Source of the DNA: Chthoniobacteraceae bacterium
GTDB taxonomy: Bacteria > Verrucomicrobiota > Verrucomicrobiia > Chthoniobacterales > Chthoniobacteraceae
DNA: 48,546 bases
Assembly: GCA_947471505.1 (NCBI GenBank)
Contig: CANIWM010000047.1
Coordinates: 1-48,546, forward strand
Direction: 5' to 3'
Under the pieces are notes generated by a model. It was not told the origin of the DNA. It was given only the letters and a program-made list of their open reading frames with translations, and did no database searches. Position numbers and translations under genes: made by a program. Positions 36,380 through 45,048 of the stretch are shown here, in pieces. Each line of letters begins with the position of its first letter. The stretch's first letter is position 1.

Positions 36380-37588
36380 TTACGGCTTCTTCCCGTCGAA
36401 CAGGAACTCCGCAGCTTGCGCCACGTCTTTATCACCGCGTCCGCTGAGGTTCACGATGATGAGTTTGTCCTTCGCCAGCTTGGGCGCGAGTTTGATGACT
36501 CCCGCGATGCCGTGCGCGCTTTCCAGGGCGGGGATGATGCCCTCCCAGCGCGAGAGTTTGGAGAAAGCGTCGAGTGCTTCGTCGTCGGTCGCGAAGTCGT
36601 ATTCGATGCGGCCTTGCTCGCGGAGAAAGGCGTGCTCCGGGCCGACAGCGGCGTAGTCCAATCCTGCGCTGACGCTGTGTGTGAGCTGGATTTGCCCGTC
36701 GTTGTCGGCGAGCAGCCAAGTCTTCGTTCCTTGCAGCACGCCGAGCTTGCCACCCTGGAAGCGCGCCGCGTGTTCGCCATCGCGGATGCCGCGGCCACCC
36801 GCCTCGACGCCGAGCATTTTCACCGACTCGTCGTGGAGGAAGGGCCAGAAGAGCCCGATGGCGTTGCTCCCGCCGCCGACGCAGGCGATGAGTTGGTCTG
36901 GCAGACGGCCCTCTTTTTCTAAAATCTGCCGTCGCGCCTCGTCGCCGATGACGCGGTGAAAATCGCGGACGATCATCGGGAAAGGGTGCGCGCCCAGCGC
37001 GGAGCCGAGGATGTAGTGCGTCGTCTGCGGATTCGTCACCCAGTCGCGCATGGCTTCGTTCACGGCTTCCTTTAGCGTGCGCTGGCCTGCGGTTACGGGG
37101 ACGACTTTGGCCCCGAGGAACTTCATCCGCGCCACGTTCAGCGACTGCCGCGCCATATCCACCTCGCCCATATAAATTACGCAGTCGAACCCGAACCGCG
37201 CACACACGGTAGCCGTCGCCACGCCGTGCTGGCCGGCGCCTGTCTCGGCGATGATGCGCTTTTTGCCGAGTCGGCGGGCGAGGAGGATTTGGCCGAGGGC
37301 GTTGTTGATTTTGTGCGCGCCGGTGTGGAGCAAGTCTTCGCGCTTCAGGTAGATTTTCGCGCCGCCGAGTTCTTCGGTGAGGCGCTCCGCGAAATAGAGC
37401 GGCGTCGGGCGCCCCACGTAATCTTTGAGGTAGTGTGCGAGTTCGGCCTGAAAGGCGGGGTCCACTTTCGCGCGTTCATACTCGGCGGTAAGCTCGATGA
37501 AATTCTGCATCAACGTCTCGGGCACAAACATCCCGCCGTATTTTCCAAAGTGTCCGTGCGTATCCGGTAGCTGGTCGTAACTGGTCAT
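36380..37588 (-). CDS. trpB: Tryptophan synthase beta subunit
   Basis: A 402-residue PLP enzyme that joins indole and L-serine to L-tryptophan, acting with TrpA (not in the window). ATG 37588 gives the family-typical start ([14 protein letters not shown]). The PLP lysine is Lys93 in [14 protein letters not shown]; the phosphate-binding glycine loop is [12 protein letters not shown]. The gate and monovalent-cation region ([24 protein letters not shown]) and the C-terminal LSGRGDKD are present. It lies 17 kb from aroK and 4.5 kb from trpE. In many genomes trpB sits next to trpA; here it is among unrelated genes, so tryptophan genes are scattered. Confidence 0.97.
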
Positions 37589-37631
37589 TGCGGGACAAGA
37601 CAGGTTTGCGCCGCGCCTTTCAACGGCGAAC

Positions 37632-38450
37632 TTACGGCATCCCCGTCGACAGCCTTGCGAAGTCTTCCGCCGAGATGGGCCCCGCTGCGCCGTTTTCCCG
37701 AAGAGGCGCACTACGAGTGGAGCGACGGACGCGGCCCAGCCACTCGCTGCCGAGCGGCTCGGCGAGTAATTCGCGGTGCGTGGCCGCTACCGTCGTTTCG
37801 TCTTTTTCGCCCGTCGCTTTTCCTCGCCCGATATGAAAGCCAGCAAGCGCAAGCGTGACGCGGACGGCGGTGGAGCGGCTGTAACTCGTGAGTGTGCAAG
37901 GCTCGCAGAGCTGCGCCCGGAGCTGCGCGAAATGCTCCAGCGTCCACATCCCGGGATTCGCGGCGGGGGAATACGGGTCATACATGATGGCGTTCGGCGG
38001 TGGCGCTGCGGCCTCCACGCGGAAGTCGCCGGGGTGGAAAAACCACGCGACATTCCCCACATCCACGCGGCCTTCTTCCACGAGCTGCGCAGCGGCAGCG
38101 CGCCACGGCACGAGGTAGCCGAGCGCCTCCGCATTGCGCACCGCGAACTCAAGCGGCGCGAGCGAGTGGTCGAAGCTGTGAAGCTCCACGCGCGCGGTGC
38201 TCCCAGCCAGCGCCTCCAACACTGCGACAGCGTTTGCGGCTGCTCCCAGCCCGACATCCCACACGATCAATCGTCCGCTTTCTCCCGCTCGCTCGACGAT
38301 GCGCGACTGCGCGACGTGTAGCCCGCGAGCCTCCGCCATCGGGCCGACGACGGGGTGGAACGTCTCGCCGTGTAAGACGGAGCGCAGGCTCATCGCCCCG
38401 GAGGCCACGGGCACGAGCGTAAAGGAATCGGAATCTTCCGGCACGGTCAC
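37632..38450 (-). CDS. MnmC methyltransferase-domain-like protein
   Basis: A 272-residue SAM-dependent methyltransferase of the type found as the MnmC N-terminal domain or stand-alone DUF752. Evidence: [24 protein letters not shown] at the start, a Rossmann motif [19 protein letters not shown] (glycine-rich SAM loop), and the MnmC-like motif [23 protein letters not shown], where MnmC has DAF/PY-SPxKNPxxW. The FAD-dependent domain of full MnmC is absent. The MnmC methyltransferase finishes 5-methylaminomethyl-2-thiouridine in tRNA wobble positions; that role is inferred. Its ATG overlaps the LolD-like stop by 4 bp. Confidence 0.8.
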
Positions 38451-42103: not shown

Positions 42104-42174
42104 AAGCGCAAATTAAGTCGGCATCTCATTTCCCGCAAAGGAAAAAATGTGAACTCGCTGATAGATTTGCGCTT
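42104..42174. repeat. Inverted repeat between trpE and pseudopilin gene
   Basis: AAGCGCAAAT (42104-42113) and ATTTGCGCTT (42165-42174) are perfectly complementary across a 51-nt spacer containing a smaller TTTCC/GGAAA pairing. The right arm overlaps the trpE stop. It may be part of the 3' end of the hisI-trpE mRNA or an operator for the pseudopilin gene. Confidence 0.4.
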
Positions 42175-43681
42175 ACACTGGCGATTGGTTCGCCCGCGCG
42201 ATGGCGGCTATGACGCCCATCGCCTTGTTCACCGTCTCTTGGTATTCGTATTCTGGAGTGCTGTCGGCGACGACACCCGCGCCCGTTTGGACGTAGGCTT
42301 TGCCGTCTTTTAGTACGGCGGTGCGCAGTGCGATGCATGAGTCGCTATTTCCATCGAACCCGAAGTAGCCGACCGCGCCCGCATAGACGTTGCGCTTGGA
42401 TTGGTCGAGTTCCGCGATGACTTGCATGGCGCGCACTTTGGGCGAACCGCTTACGGTTCCGGCCGGGAAAGTCGCTCGCATCACGTCGTAAGCGGAGCGG
42501 TCCGGGCGAAGGCGCCCCTCCACATTGCTGACGATGTGCATGACGTGACTGTAGCGCTCCACGATCATAAAGTCGTTCACTTTCACACTCGCATACTCGC
42601 TCGCACGGCCCACGTCGTTGCGGGCGAGGTCCACGAGCATGAGATGTTCGGCGCGCTCTTTCGGGTCGGCGAGAAGATCAGCGGCGTTGAATGCGTCTTC
42701 TTCCGGCGTCGCGCCCCGGCGGCGGGTTCCGGCGATGGGGCGGATTTCGATTTTGCCGTTAATCGCCCGCACATGCACCTCGGGCGAACTGCCCACGAGC
42801 GCGAAGCGGCCCGCGAATTTCATGCAGAACATATACGGCGACGGATTCACAAATCGCAGCGCCCGATACAGAGTCACCGGGTCGCCGGAAAACTCGGTCT
42901 CGAACCGCTGGCTGACAACGATTTGAAACGCATCGCCCGCGTGGATGTATTCCTGACATTTCGCCACCATGTCGAAGAACTGCTCGCGCGTCGTATTACT
43001 GCGGCATTCCGCCGGAGCTGGCGCGGGCGTGATGGGAAAAGGCGGGAGCTGATTCGGCTTCGCCAGCTTTTCCAAAATCGCGGAGATACGCACCTGCGCC
43101 GCCGCATAAGCCGCATCCACATCGCCCTCGATAAATGCGTTCGCCACCACGCGAATGCGCCGCTTCAAGTGGTCGAAAATGAGGACCGTATCCGCGATGA
43201 CAAAAAGGCTCTCCGGTAACCCAAGTTCGTCCTTTTTCGCCGCCGGAACCGTCGGCTCAAAGAAGCGCACCATGTCGTAGCTCAAGTAGCCCACAGCCCC
43301 GCCCGCAAAGCGCGAGCGGAGCTCTGGCGGTTCGTCCGGCAGAGGCACGTATTTGTATTTTGACATCAGTGCTTCGACGTCGGCGAGCGGGTCGCGCACG
43401 CTCTGAAACTCCCGCGTGGCGCCATTCTCCGAGAGCTTTACCGTGCGCCCCTGGCTCTCTAATACCGTCCTCGCTCCGGTGATGAGAAACGAGAAGCGCC
43501 CGGTCTGCTCAATCTTCTCCACGCTTTCAAAAAGAAACGTGTAGCCGCCATCATCGAGCTTGGTGAAAGCCGCGATAGGCGTCTCCGCGTCGGCGATGAT
43601 TTCGGCGTAAACCGGGATGAGGTTGCCCTTTTTTGCCAAAGCGGAAAACTCCGCCAGCGAAGGTGTGAAATGTGTGTTCAT
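42173..43681 (-). CDS. trpE: Anthranilate synthase component I
   Basis: A 502-residue chorismate-utilising enzyme that makes anthranilate from chorismate and glutamine (with TrpG, not in the window) or ammonia. The C-terminal domain shows the family signatures: FQIVVSQRFE, NPSPYMFCMKF, EIRPIAGTRRRG, the Mg-binding Glu in EHLMLVDLARND, VMHIVSNVEGRLR, FPAGTVSGSPKVRAMQVI and TGAGVVADSTPEYEYQET. The N-terminal region (LIPVYAEIIADAETPIAAFTKL) contains the segment with the LxES-type tryptophan feedback site (FLFESVE, about residues 48-54), so end-product inhibition is expected. It follows hisI with an 8-bp gap, and both lie under the Trp/His leader. Confidence 0.95.
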   Translation of the reverse strand: MNTHFTPSLAEFSALAKKGNLIPVYAEIIADAETPIAAFTKLDDGGYTFLFESVEKIEQTGRFSFLITGARTVLESQGRTVKLSENGATREFQSVRDPLADVEALMSKYKYVPLPDEPPELRSRFAGGAVGYLSYDMVRFFEPTVPAAKKDELGLPESLFVIADTVLIFDHLKRRIRVVANAFIEGDVDAAYAAAQVRISAILEKLAKPNQLPPFPITPAPAPAECRSNTTREQFFDMVAKCQEYIHAGDAFQIVVSQRFETEFSGDPVTLYRALRFVNPSPYMFCMKFAGRFALVGSSPEVHVRAINGKIEIRPIAGTRRRGATPEEDAFNAADLLADPKERAEHLMLVDLARNDVGRASEYASVKVNDFMIVERYSHVMHIVSNVEGRLRPDRSAYDVMRATFPAGTVSGSPKVRAMQVIAELDQSKRNVYAGAVGYFGFDGNSDSCIALRTAVLKDGKAYVQTGAGVVADSTPEYEYQETVNKAMGVIAAIARANQSPV

Positions 43682-43689
43682 AGAAAAAG

Positions 43690-44070
43690 TCAGACGCCGT
43701 ACGTTTTTGCTGCGTCGAAGAGCGGCGTCTCCTCGATAGGTTTTGGCAAACCGTGGTTATCGAGCTCTTGAAAAAAGCACGACTCATAGCCCGTGTGACA
43801 CGCCCCTCCGGTCTGCTCGACCTCAAAAAGCAGCGTGTCTTTATCGCAATCCACGGCCCACCGTACCACACGCTGGACGTTACCGCTCGTCTCGCCCTTC
43901 ACCCAGTATTTTTGCCGGGATCGGCTGAAGTACACCATCATCCCTTTTTCGAGCGTCATGCGGATGGATTGGTCGTTCATCCACGCCATCATGAGCACGC
44001 GCTTGCTCTGCGCGTCCTGCACGATTGCTGGGATGAGTCCGTCTGAGTTGTATTTGAATTGGCTGATCAT
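43690..44070 (-). CDS. hisI: Phosphoribosyl-AMP cyclohydrolase
   Basis: A 126-residue single-domain HisI, third step of histidine biosynthesis (ring opening of phosphoribosyl-AMP). The zinc ligands Cys75, Cys91 and Cys98 (VDCDKD and GGACHTGYESCF) and the Asp74/76/78 triad that binds Mg are all present, as is KGETSGNVQ. There is no HisE domain; length and ending match mono-domain archaeal/bacterial HisI. The ATG at 44070 comes about 10 nt after the attenuator U-tract and has no Shine-Dalgarno sequence. trpE follows after 8 bp. Other his genes are not in the window. Confidence 0.96.
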   Translation of the reverse strand: MISQFKYNSDGLIPAIVQDAQSKRVLMMAWMNDQSIRMTLEKGMMVYFSRSRQKYWVKGETSGNVQRVVRWAVDCDKDTLLFEVEQTGGACHTGYESCFFQELDNHGLPKPIEETPLFDAAKTYGV

Positions 44071-44079
44071 GTGTTTGGT

Positions 44080-44125
44080 AAAAAAGAAAACGGCCCGTGA
44101 TTCGCGGTATCGGAATCAACGGGCC
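44080..44125 (-). terminator. Attenuator terminator hairpin upstream of hisI
   Basis: On the minus strand GGCCCGTTGATTC (44125-44113) pairs with GAATCACGGGCC (44103-44092): 7 + 5 bp with one bulged U and a 9-nt loop, followed by GTTTTCTTTTTT (44091-44080). The first codon of hisI is at 44070. A strong intrinsic terminator 10 nt before a start codon, downstream of the leader ORF, can only make sense as a conditional one. Confidence 0.88.
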
Positions 44126-44182
44126 AAGAGGCTTCGGCGCACAGTGGCGACGACCGTTCCGCAGAAGCGCGGAACCGGCCCG

Positions 44183-44215
44183 TCAAAAATGCCACCAATG
44201 CCAGAAAAATTTCAT
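44183..44215 (-). CDS. Leader peptide rich in Trp, His and Phe
   Basis: A ten-codon ORF beginning at ATG 44215 and ending at TGA 44185-44183 encodes MKFFWHWWHF: three Trp, two His and three Phe among ten residues. Regulatory codons W-H-W-W-H occupy 44203-44189, just before the stop, the classical place in amino-acid operon leaders. Only a weak purine-poor sequence (GCGGCAG) precedes the ATG, as for most genes here. It lies between the phzF stop (44263) and hisI (44070). A random ORF of this composition, in this strand, ahead of hisI and trpE and a terminator, is very unlikely. Confidence 0.9.
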   Translation of the reverse strand: MKFFWHWWHF

Positions 44216-44262
44216 CTGCCGCTTTGGATACGCGGCGACGCGTGGGGAGAAAAGGGAAAAGT

Positions 44263-45048
44263 TCAATCTGGGAGCAGCAACTCCGCGCGACTGTAGAGAG
44301 CGGCACTGCCGCCCATGCCGACGCGGTCGCCGCGCAGTTCGCAGTGAATAGTGCCGCCCCGCTTAGAGAGTTGGCGCGCGACCATCTTGGTCTTGCCGAG
44401 TTTTTCCGCCCAATATGGGATGAGCGTGCAGTGTGCGGAACCAGTTACAGGGTCCTCGGGAATTCCGACGGATGGGGCGAAAAATCGGGAGACGAAATCT
44501 ACTTCGCGTCCCGCCGCTGTGACGATCACGCCGAGGCTGTCGAGCGTGGCGAGCTGCGGGAAATCGGGAGTGAGCGTGCGCACTTCTTCCTCGTCGCCGA
44601 CGACCGCCATGTAGTCGCGGTTCCTGCGGACTTCGCGCGGCACTTGGCCGAGGCCTGAGTAGAGGGCGGGCGGCGCCGGGCTGGGTTCGCCGGGGCGACT
44701 GGGGAAGTCGAGCATCACCACGCTGCCGTCGAACGAAGCGCTAAGCGGGCCGCTTTTCGATTGGAAATTGACCGTCTCTTTTTTGTGGCCGAGTTCCGTG
44801 AAAAGCACGAAGGCCGAGGCGAGTGTCGCGTGGCCGCAGAGATCGACTTCTTGGTCGGGCGTGAACCAGCGCAGCTCGAATGTGTCGCCGACTCGGACGA
44901 GGAATGCGGTTTCGCTCAAGTTGTTCTCGGCGGCGACTTGTTGGAGCAGCGAATCGCGCAGCCAGCGTTCCAGCAGGCAGACGCCAGCAGGGTTTCCACT
45001 AAAAACGCGGTCGGTAAATGCGTCCACTTGGTAATACGGTACTTTCAT
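44263..45048 (-). CDS. PhzF-family isomerase
   Basis: A 261-residue protein of the PhzF/diaminopimelate-epimerase fold. ATG 45048 gives the usual start (KVPYYQVDAFTDRVFSGNPAGVC); the open frame runs further upstream only antisense to ctaA. The catalytic Glu is Glu46 in ENNLSETAFL. The DLCGHATLASAFVL motif and the PEDPVTGSAHCTLIPYW motif of the second half are both present. PhzF isomerises trans-2,3-dihydro-3-hydroxyanthranilate in phenazine synthesis, but most family members are outside phenazine clusters and have unknown substrates. It stands before the hisI-trpE leader on the same strand with a 47-bp gap to the leader ORF; anthranilate chemistry next door is suggestive only. Confidence 0.88.
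   Translation of the reverse strand: MKVPYYQVDAFTDRVFSGNPAGVCLLERWLRDSLLQQVAAENNLSETAFLVRVGDTFELRWFTPDQEVDLCGHATLASAFVLFTELGHKKETVNFQSKSGPLSASFDGSVVMLDFPSRPGEPSPAPPALYSGLGQVPREVRRNRDYMAVVGDEEEVRTLTPDFPQLATLDSLGVIVTAAGREVDFVSRFFAPSVGIPEDPVTGSAHCTLIPYWAEKLGKTKMVARQLSKRGGTIHCELRGDRVGMGGSAALYSRAELLLPD

Follow-up and report, generated by a model that had tools for sequence, protein, structure and literature searches.

Leaders that answer to more than one amino acid are already known among ribosome-mediated attenuators in the thr and ilv systems, whose leaders contain two or three kinds of regulatory codons. The remark in the preliminary description that classical leaders carry runs of a single amino acid was too strong, since codons are mixed in both of these leaders; the thr leader responds to Thr and Ile, according to a title cited in PMC7041290. 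A his leader of Salmonella into which two Ser codons had been inserted responds to starvation for either His or Ser (PMC4046918). The trp leaders (trpL) of Enterobacteria, Rhizobia, Corynebacterium and Streptomyces consist of a short open reading frame (ORF) with tandem Trp codons, followed by mutually exclusive antiterminator and terminator structures that control trpE, and the trp attenuators of Actinobacteria contain double or triple Trp codons (PMC1262725). In Sinorhizobium meliloti the attenuator RNA rnTrpL starts at the ATG of the leader, and only trpE(G) of the three trp operons is attenuated (PMC7298713).

The leader described here, located before hisI and trpE in a bacterium of the Chthoniobacteraceae, is a variant of the mixed-codon kind. 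In the thr and ilv leaders the amino acids come from a single pathway family, whereas Trp and His are made by separate pathways, which share PRPP as a substrate. It has in common with trpL the short ORF with tandem Trp codons, the predicted alternative structures and control of trpE, and with the hisL leader of Salmonella and E. coli that a ribosome would read His codons. The S. meliloti trpL leader is not known to contain His, and the present leader differs from trpL in that its first gene is hisI and that a His codon within the predicted sensing window is conserved. The trpL leader of S. meliloti codes for 14 amino acids with consecutive Trp codons (PMC7298713), whereas ten codons with both Trp and His are found here; hisL contains seven consecutive His codons (PMC4046918), whereas here single His codons are mixed with Trp and a hisL-type run is not present.

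The window, that is, the whole stretch of 48,546 nucleotides that was analysed (contig CANIWM010000047.1, assembly GCA_947471505.1), matched at the Rfam gathering score only a tRNA, and no Rfam trp leader. The genes concerned are the following:
44183 to 44215, minus strand: leader ORF MKFFWHWWHF with its stop codon, supported by sequence, conservation and shuffles.
43690 to 44070, minus strand: hisI, phosphoribosyl-AMP cyclohydrolase, NCBIfam NF000768 above cut-off.
42173 to 43681, minus strand: trpE, anthranilate synthase component I, NCBIfam TIGR00564 above cut-off.

The leader, encoded on the minus strand (44215 to 44183), reads ATG AAA TTT TTC TGG CAT TGG TGG CAT TTT TGA, hence three Trp codons, two His codons, both single, and three Phe codons. 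The ORF, its codon counts and the match of its amino acids to the two genes that follow had all been claimed from the letters alone, and they stood when the sequence was re-read and both genes were assigned by profile. A PhzF-family gene on the same strand ends at 44263, upstream of the leader, and 112 nt separate the end of the leader from the start of hisI. The terminator lies in this gap. Short ORFs are common, and ORFs with two adjacent Trp codons (WW) occurred by chance in 3 of 55 loci with unlinked genes. The leader was compared with dinucleotide shuffles of the 192-nt region, 20,000 in all. Of these, 33 contained a short WW ORF and 11 one with at least three Trp and at least two His codons, while an ORF with HWW was present in none. 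This shuffle test and the conservation of position, length and core in the genus and the family led to the rejection of a chance ORF in the intergenic region, a reading whose probability is negligible.

A search of related Verrucomicrobiota for a short ORF with Trp and His codons, proposed in the preliminary description, bore out the leader. Of 97 genomes, 81 contained hisI (82 matches), and the upstream region was examined for 70 of the matches; loci L031 to L039 were left out of the counts because they lie on the same contigs as L002 to L010. Linkage, defined as trpE after hisI on the same strand and within 1 kb, holds for 51 of the 70 loci. Of these 51 linked loci of the order, 22 have a WW leader before hisI-trpE, including those of all ten genomes of the genus, where the peptides are MKFFWHWWHF (twice), MTTHWHWWHF, MTNYWHWWHL, MTNYWHWWHI, MKFSQHWWRP, MKFSQHWWHP, MKFTPHWWRP, MNDFPRWWHH and MTTYWDWWHL. 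Other genera have MNSLLHWWRN, MNFAHWWWHI, MILTAHHWWPC, MNQYWWHFF, MNFTLHWWQL, MKITPHWWHN and five MKLxLHWW(R/H) forms, and another family has MSLPAIHWWHW; many of these start with GTG. Six further linked loci show, by eye, a leader with one Trp codon. No leader was seen in 21 of the 51 linked loci, among them 10 of the 12 in genus g5, and also those of families f4 and f5; of the remaining two, L118 shows no more than MRHMDWRHS, a possible ORF with a single Trp codon, and L104 has just 75 bases upstream, too little sequence to read.

Where the two genes lie apart, a WW ORF was found upstream of hisI at 1 of 19 loci (L136, 32 amino acids) and upstream of trpE at 2 of 36 (L154, 43 amino acids; L158, 41 amino acids). 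None of the three has His adjoining WW and, judged from their sequences, they look like chance ORFs. In G020, the one genus g9 genome with hisI and trpE apart, neither gene has the leader. A covariance model built from 24 leaders and run over 213 genomes of the order gave matches in 30 genomes, and 26 of these are among the 40 family genomes listed, at one place each, before hisI. The other four matches, in family f6, are a 5S rRNA with a terminator and were discarded as false. The linkage of hisI and trpE is wider than the leader: trpE follows hisI without a visible WW leader in five Omnitrophota records (L076, L078, L096, L098 and L099) and at the Verrucomicrobiota locus L073. At L133, in another family, a HWWHW leader is directly followed by a different hairpin and T-run. 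In G008 (L008) the gap between hisI and trpE measures about 455 nt and contains an ORF that by eye resembles a small helical-bundle protein.

The segments of the leader RNA, with the putative promoter element, are as follows:
44225 to 44230, minus strand: putative -10 box TATCCA, the start codon 9 nt further on, with box spacing as in most relatives, by eye.
44191 to 44196, minus strand: segment 1, GGTGGC, within the Trp/His codons, from the alignment, the consensus fold and the state with no ribosome.
44177 to 44182, minus strand: antiterminator arm CGGGCC, directly 3' of the stop codon, complementary to 44125 to 44120.
44149 to 44184, minus strand: middle hairpin GACGGG.CCG.GTTCCGC / GCGGAACGGTCGTC, from the folds, with seven pairs changed on both sides.
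44143 to 44151, minus strand: possible partner of segment 1, GTCGCCACT, from the alignment and the consensus fold.
44092 to 44125, minus strand: GC-rich terminator hairpin GGCCCGTTGATTC...GAATCACGGGCC, from the sequence and the folds.
44080 to 44091, minus strand: U-rich tail of the terminator, from the sequence.

Most of the 28 leaders listed show, by eye, TTGCC or something close, about 17 bases, TAT or TAA, about 9 nt and then the start codon, the first box being weak in the window itself (TTTTCT). If these boxes are the promoter, the leader mRNA would start at or just before the start codon, and we infer that it is probably leaderless or nearly so; this putative start suggests a geometry similar to that of S. 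meliloti rnTrpL. A promoter and terminator consensus scan of 43900 to 44400 gave no promoter-like and no terminator-like site; the terminator was missed, in our reading, because its 9-nt loop and its bulge are beyond the limits of this simple tool. The terminator hairpin with its U-rich tail is conserved in the alignment, as is the CGGG of the antiterminator arm, which as CGGGCC can pair with GGCCCG of the terminator 5' arm. Segment 1 is able to pair with the downstream stretch GTCGCCAC, through GTCGCC or GCCAC, the register varying between folds, and in the single-sequence fold it takes another partner slightly further on. The 145-nt leader RNA folds with -58.9 kcal/mol (z-score -3.95). Covariance analysis, also proposed at the outset, located all the pairs changed on both sides in the middle hairpin; the terminator core is nearly invariant and hence yields no covariation evidence. 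Downstream of the possible segment 1 partner, at 44133 to 44142 of the window on the minus strand, nearly all aligned leaders contain GTGCGCCGAA, mostly TGCG[TC]CG in the family.

The effect of ribosome position was studied by folding the transcript up to the terminator 3' arm with a ribosome placed at each codon; its 3' edge was set 15 nt downstream of the first base in the P site. The model is thermodynamic, without pausing or kinetics, and covers 24 of the 28 leaders (22 WW and six one-Trp); L019, L020, L023 and L133 were left out because they do not have the same arms. With a ribosome stalled at the first or the last Trp of the last Trp run, or at the codon preceding that run, the probability P of the antiterminator exceeded 0.5 in all 24 leaders, and with a ribosome at the stop codon in none. 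Without a ribosome, P exceeded 0.5 only in L027 (0.96) and was partial in L112 (0.30). A stall at the codon after the last Trp gave, with the standard footprint, a median P of 0.11, with values above 0.5 in 6 of 24. Across five footprint sizes the codon before Trp stayed inside the sensing window in 23 to 24 of the 24 leaders. With the two largest footprints the first Trp was inside in 23 and 16 leaders and the last Trp in 17 and 3, while with the smallest the codon after Trp was also inside, in all 24. Hence the codon before WW, mostly His, is predicted to lie in the sensing window whatever the footprint. In silico, an antiterminator that depends on the ribosome excludes the terminator in each of the 24 leaders modelled, and the leader of the window has the arrangement of a bivalent leader, with His6 and Trp7/8 inside the sensing window and hisI and trpE downstream.

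According to the mechanism proposed, a ribosome stalled at His6, Trp7 or Trp8, and in this leader also at Trp5, would cover segment 1 and leave the CGGGCC after the stop codon free. The free CGGGCC would then pair with the terminator 5' arm, and RNA polymerase would continue into hisI-trpE. At the stop codon the ribosome would cover CGGGCC, so that the terminator forms; in the absence of a ribosome, CGGGCC would be blocked by segment 1 together with the middle hairpin, with the same outcome. Through this stalling and pairing, a shortage of either charged tRNA-Trp or charged tRNA-His would raise the expression of both genes. We infer that the response to Trp is very likely and that to His likely. 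Sensing of Trp and joint control of hisI and trpE, as first suggested, are well supported by conservation, by the alternative RNA structures and by the ribosome-position model.

Sensing of Phe, which had been put forward as a further possibility, is not supported. The leader of the window does contain three Phe codons, and a stall at F4, at the edge of the sensing window, gave P 0.95; stalls at F3 and F10 gave 0.09 and 0.00, and the Phe codons vary even within the genus. A third sensed amino acid is scarcely credible.

The position of His requires a closer look. In 19 of the 22 WW leaders His directly precedes WW, the other three having Arg, Asp and Tyr, and the codon after WW is His in 14 and Arg in 6. 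Counted on the hisI tree of these leaders, amino-acid changes numbered 3 at the codon before WW, 9 to 12 at each of the three preceding codons, none at Trp and 6 at the codon after. An alternative explanation is that the attenuator reads Trp only, and that His is kept for pairing of CAU/CAC in the RNA or for decoding speed next to UGG. In its favour, WW is invariant in 22 of 22 leaders, an invariance that follows from choosing the leaders by WW, and His is not. Pairing was evaluated by placing each of the 61 sense codons at the His position in 12 of the 24 modelled leaders. The off state was kept by 38 to 61 of the 61 codons in ten of the 12, which speaks against a pairing role, and by just 8 and 9 in L011 and L117, where most replacements break it; pairing may therefore account for His in some leaders but is no general explanation. 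Moreover, on the tree the third base of the His codon before WW changed four times while His stayed, and in the six one-Trp leaders His directly precedes Trp in four and stands one codon earlier in one, the sixth having Tyr.

Codon choice bears on the same question. The His codons of Verrucomicrobiota leaders strongly favour CAT (CAT:CAC 29:7, whereas hisI and trpE at these loci have 64:204), a preference that is counted in favour of the two-amino-acid reading and also of the Trp-only alternative; it could come from a constraint on the RNA as well. A biased choice of regulatory codons is known in other leaders (PMC1183508). In Poribacteria, introduced below, the figures are 137:7 in the leaders and 474:308 in hisI and trpE, and the preference of leaders for CAT over the downstream genes holds in the GC-rich phylum too.

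At one distant match, L060, whose record is assigned to Candidatus Poribacteria, hisI-trpE is preceded by MKFSNLLLHSNTATHNWHWWHSIWSGRSMPLLK. In this phylum hisI was found in 75 of the 78 genomes searched (76 matches), and 70 loci were examined. A leader with the W-H-W core or a variant of it, detected by script, precedes hisI at 59 of the 70 loci, 47 of them with exactly HWHWW; an example is MQTLNRQPQFQIASHHWHWWHRVEGSSVPLLR. Five uncounted loci (L192, L194, L201, L231 and L241) have a leader that by eye is disturbed, truncated or diverged, the sequence upstream of hisI is too short at L189 and L197, and no leader was seen at L236, L239, L242 and L247. At 68 of the 70 loci trpE follows hisI within 0.9 kb, the other two being at contig ends. 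In L192 and L201 an in-frame insertion separates the HW and WWH parts, both of which are kept, and the insert of L192 contains an inverted repeat. A second WW ORF between hisI and trpE was found in none of 55 Poribacterial gaps, and an ORF of the loose pattern in 3 of the 55.

The Poribacterial leaders, mostly of about 30 codons, are longer than the Verrucomicrobiota leader, and their terminator and antiterminator arm differ from the Verrucomicrobiota ones; in the L181 group the antiterminator arm lies, by eye, within the last leader codons. Of the 59 leaders, 57 have His between the first and the second Trp codon, with two amino-acid and five third-base changes at this position on the tree, and 51 have His ahead of the first Trp, with seven changes there; the Trp codons changed 0 to 2 times and codons outside the core 8 to 20 times. 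In the model of 58 of the 59 leaders (L249 was left out, its terminator not being found), the median probability that the terminator 5' arm is held by upstream sequence was 1.00 with the ribosome stalled at any of the core codons, about 0.3 by ten codons further on, 0.22 at the stop codon and 0.79 without a ribosome. RNAalifold on 56 leaders found just a small local hairpin at the His/Trp core. This finding, in a layout different from that of Verrucomicrobiota with a similar mix of His and Trp, argues further against keeping His for pairing. The Trp-only alternative is considered unlikely. The similar mix, the different layout and the same two genes form, as comparative evidence, the strongest indication that His is read.

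It is reasonably probable that a leader sensing Trp and His couples hisI to trpE in two phyla, a family of Verrucomicrobiota and Poribacteria, with lengths, terminators and antiterminators that differ and HWW or HWHWW codons that are alike, either by convergence or through an old shared core. The keeping of a similar core peptide in both would also suit a sensor made of the nascent peptide, in which HWHWW itself would halt the ribosome, like TnaC in the presence of free Trp, or would act in trans like peTrpL. The codons around the core, however, change freely, and the modelled geometry agrees with stalls at the core codons for which no peptide effect is needed; a peptide sensor is very unlikely. 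Among the open-access full texts searched, no paper was found that reports a leader with both Trp and His codons or an attenuator in either phylum.

Other genes of the two pathways and a control set were also searched. In the genus no WW ORF was found within 400 bases upstream of trpB (8 loci), hisG (10) or trpD (8), and loose patterns matched there in a few single genomes. The genome of the window has an HH ORF before hisG (L260) and an HHH ORF before trpD (L276), neither of them common to the other genomes examined. The trpB gene of the window (36380 to 37711), which shares the strand of trpE and is located some 4.5 kb past it, is without a W leader. Upstream of hisG in Poribacteria, loose matches were found at 4 of 27 loci (one of the 27 had only 193 bases); two of the four, at L353 and L360, are an ORF beginning MWWW near -447. 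As a control, the 30 gammaproteobacterial trpE loci with the best-scoring matches out of 143 genomes searched were taken. A WW ORF was present in eight of these best 30, with His directly before WW in none of the eight and directly after it in two (L316 and L320); these were counted as ORFs, real leaders or not, and the set is too thin for a rate of His adjoining Trp. The two cases with His after WW fall on the side of the Trp-only alternative.

Taken together, the reading preferred here is a ribosome-mediated transcription attenuator that responds to two amino acids, Trp and His, over hisI-trpE, with a probability of roughly 0.74. That the structure is a ribosome-mediated attenuator is close to certain, and that it senses Trp hardly less so. 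Sensing of His is likely on the basis of conservation and modelled geometry. What had been claimed for His is supported for the codon before WW, which is conserved and lies in the predicted sensing window, and by a His/Trp leader in a second phylum; the codon after WW is mostly outside that window at the standard footprint.

If this reading is true, a single attenuator monitors two separate pathways through a mixture of their codons, and the leader would be a natural form of the dual-response leader built in Salmonella (PMC4046918). The many natural codon variants on offer could serve for testing which codons are sensed. Moreover, ribosome-mediated attenuation would be extended to two little-studied phyla.
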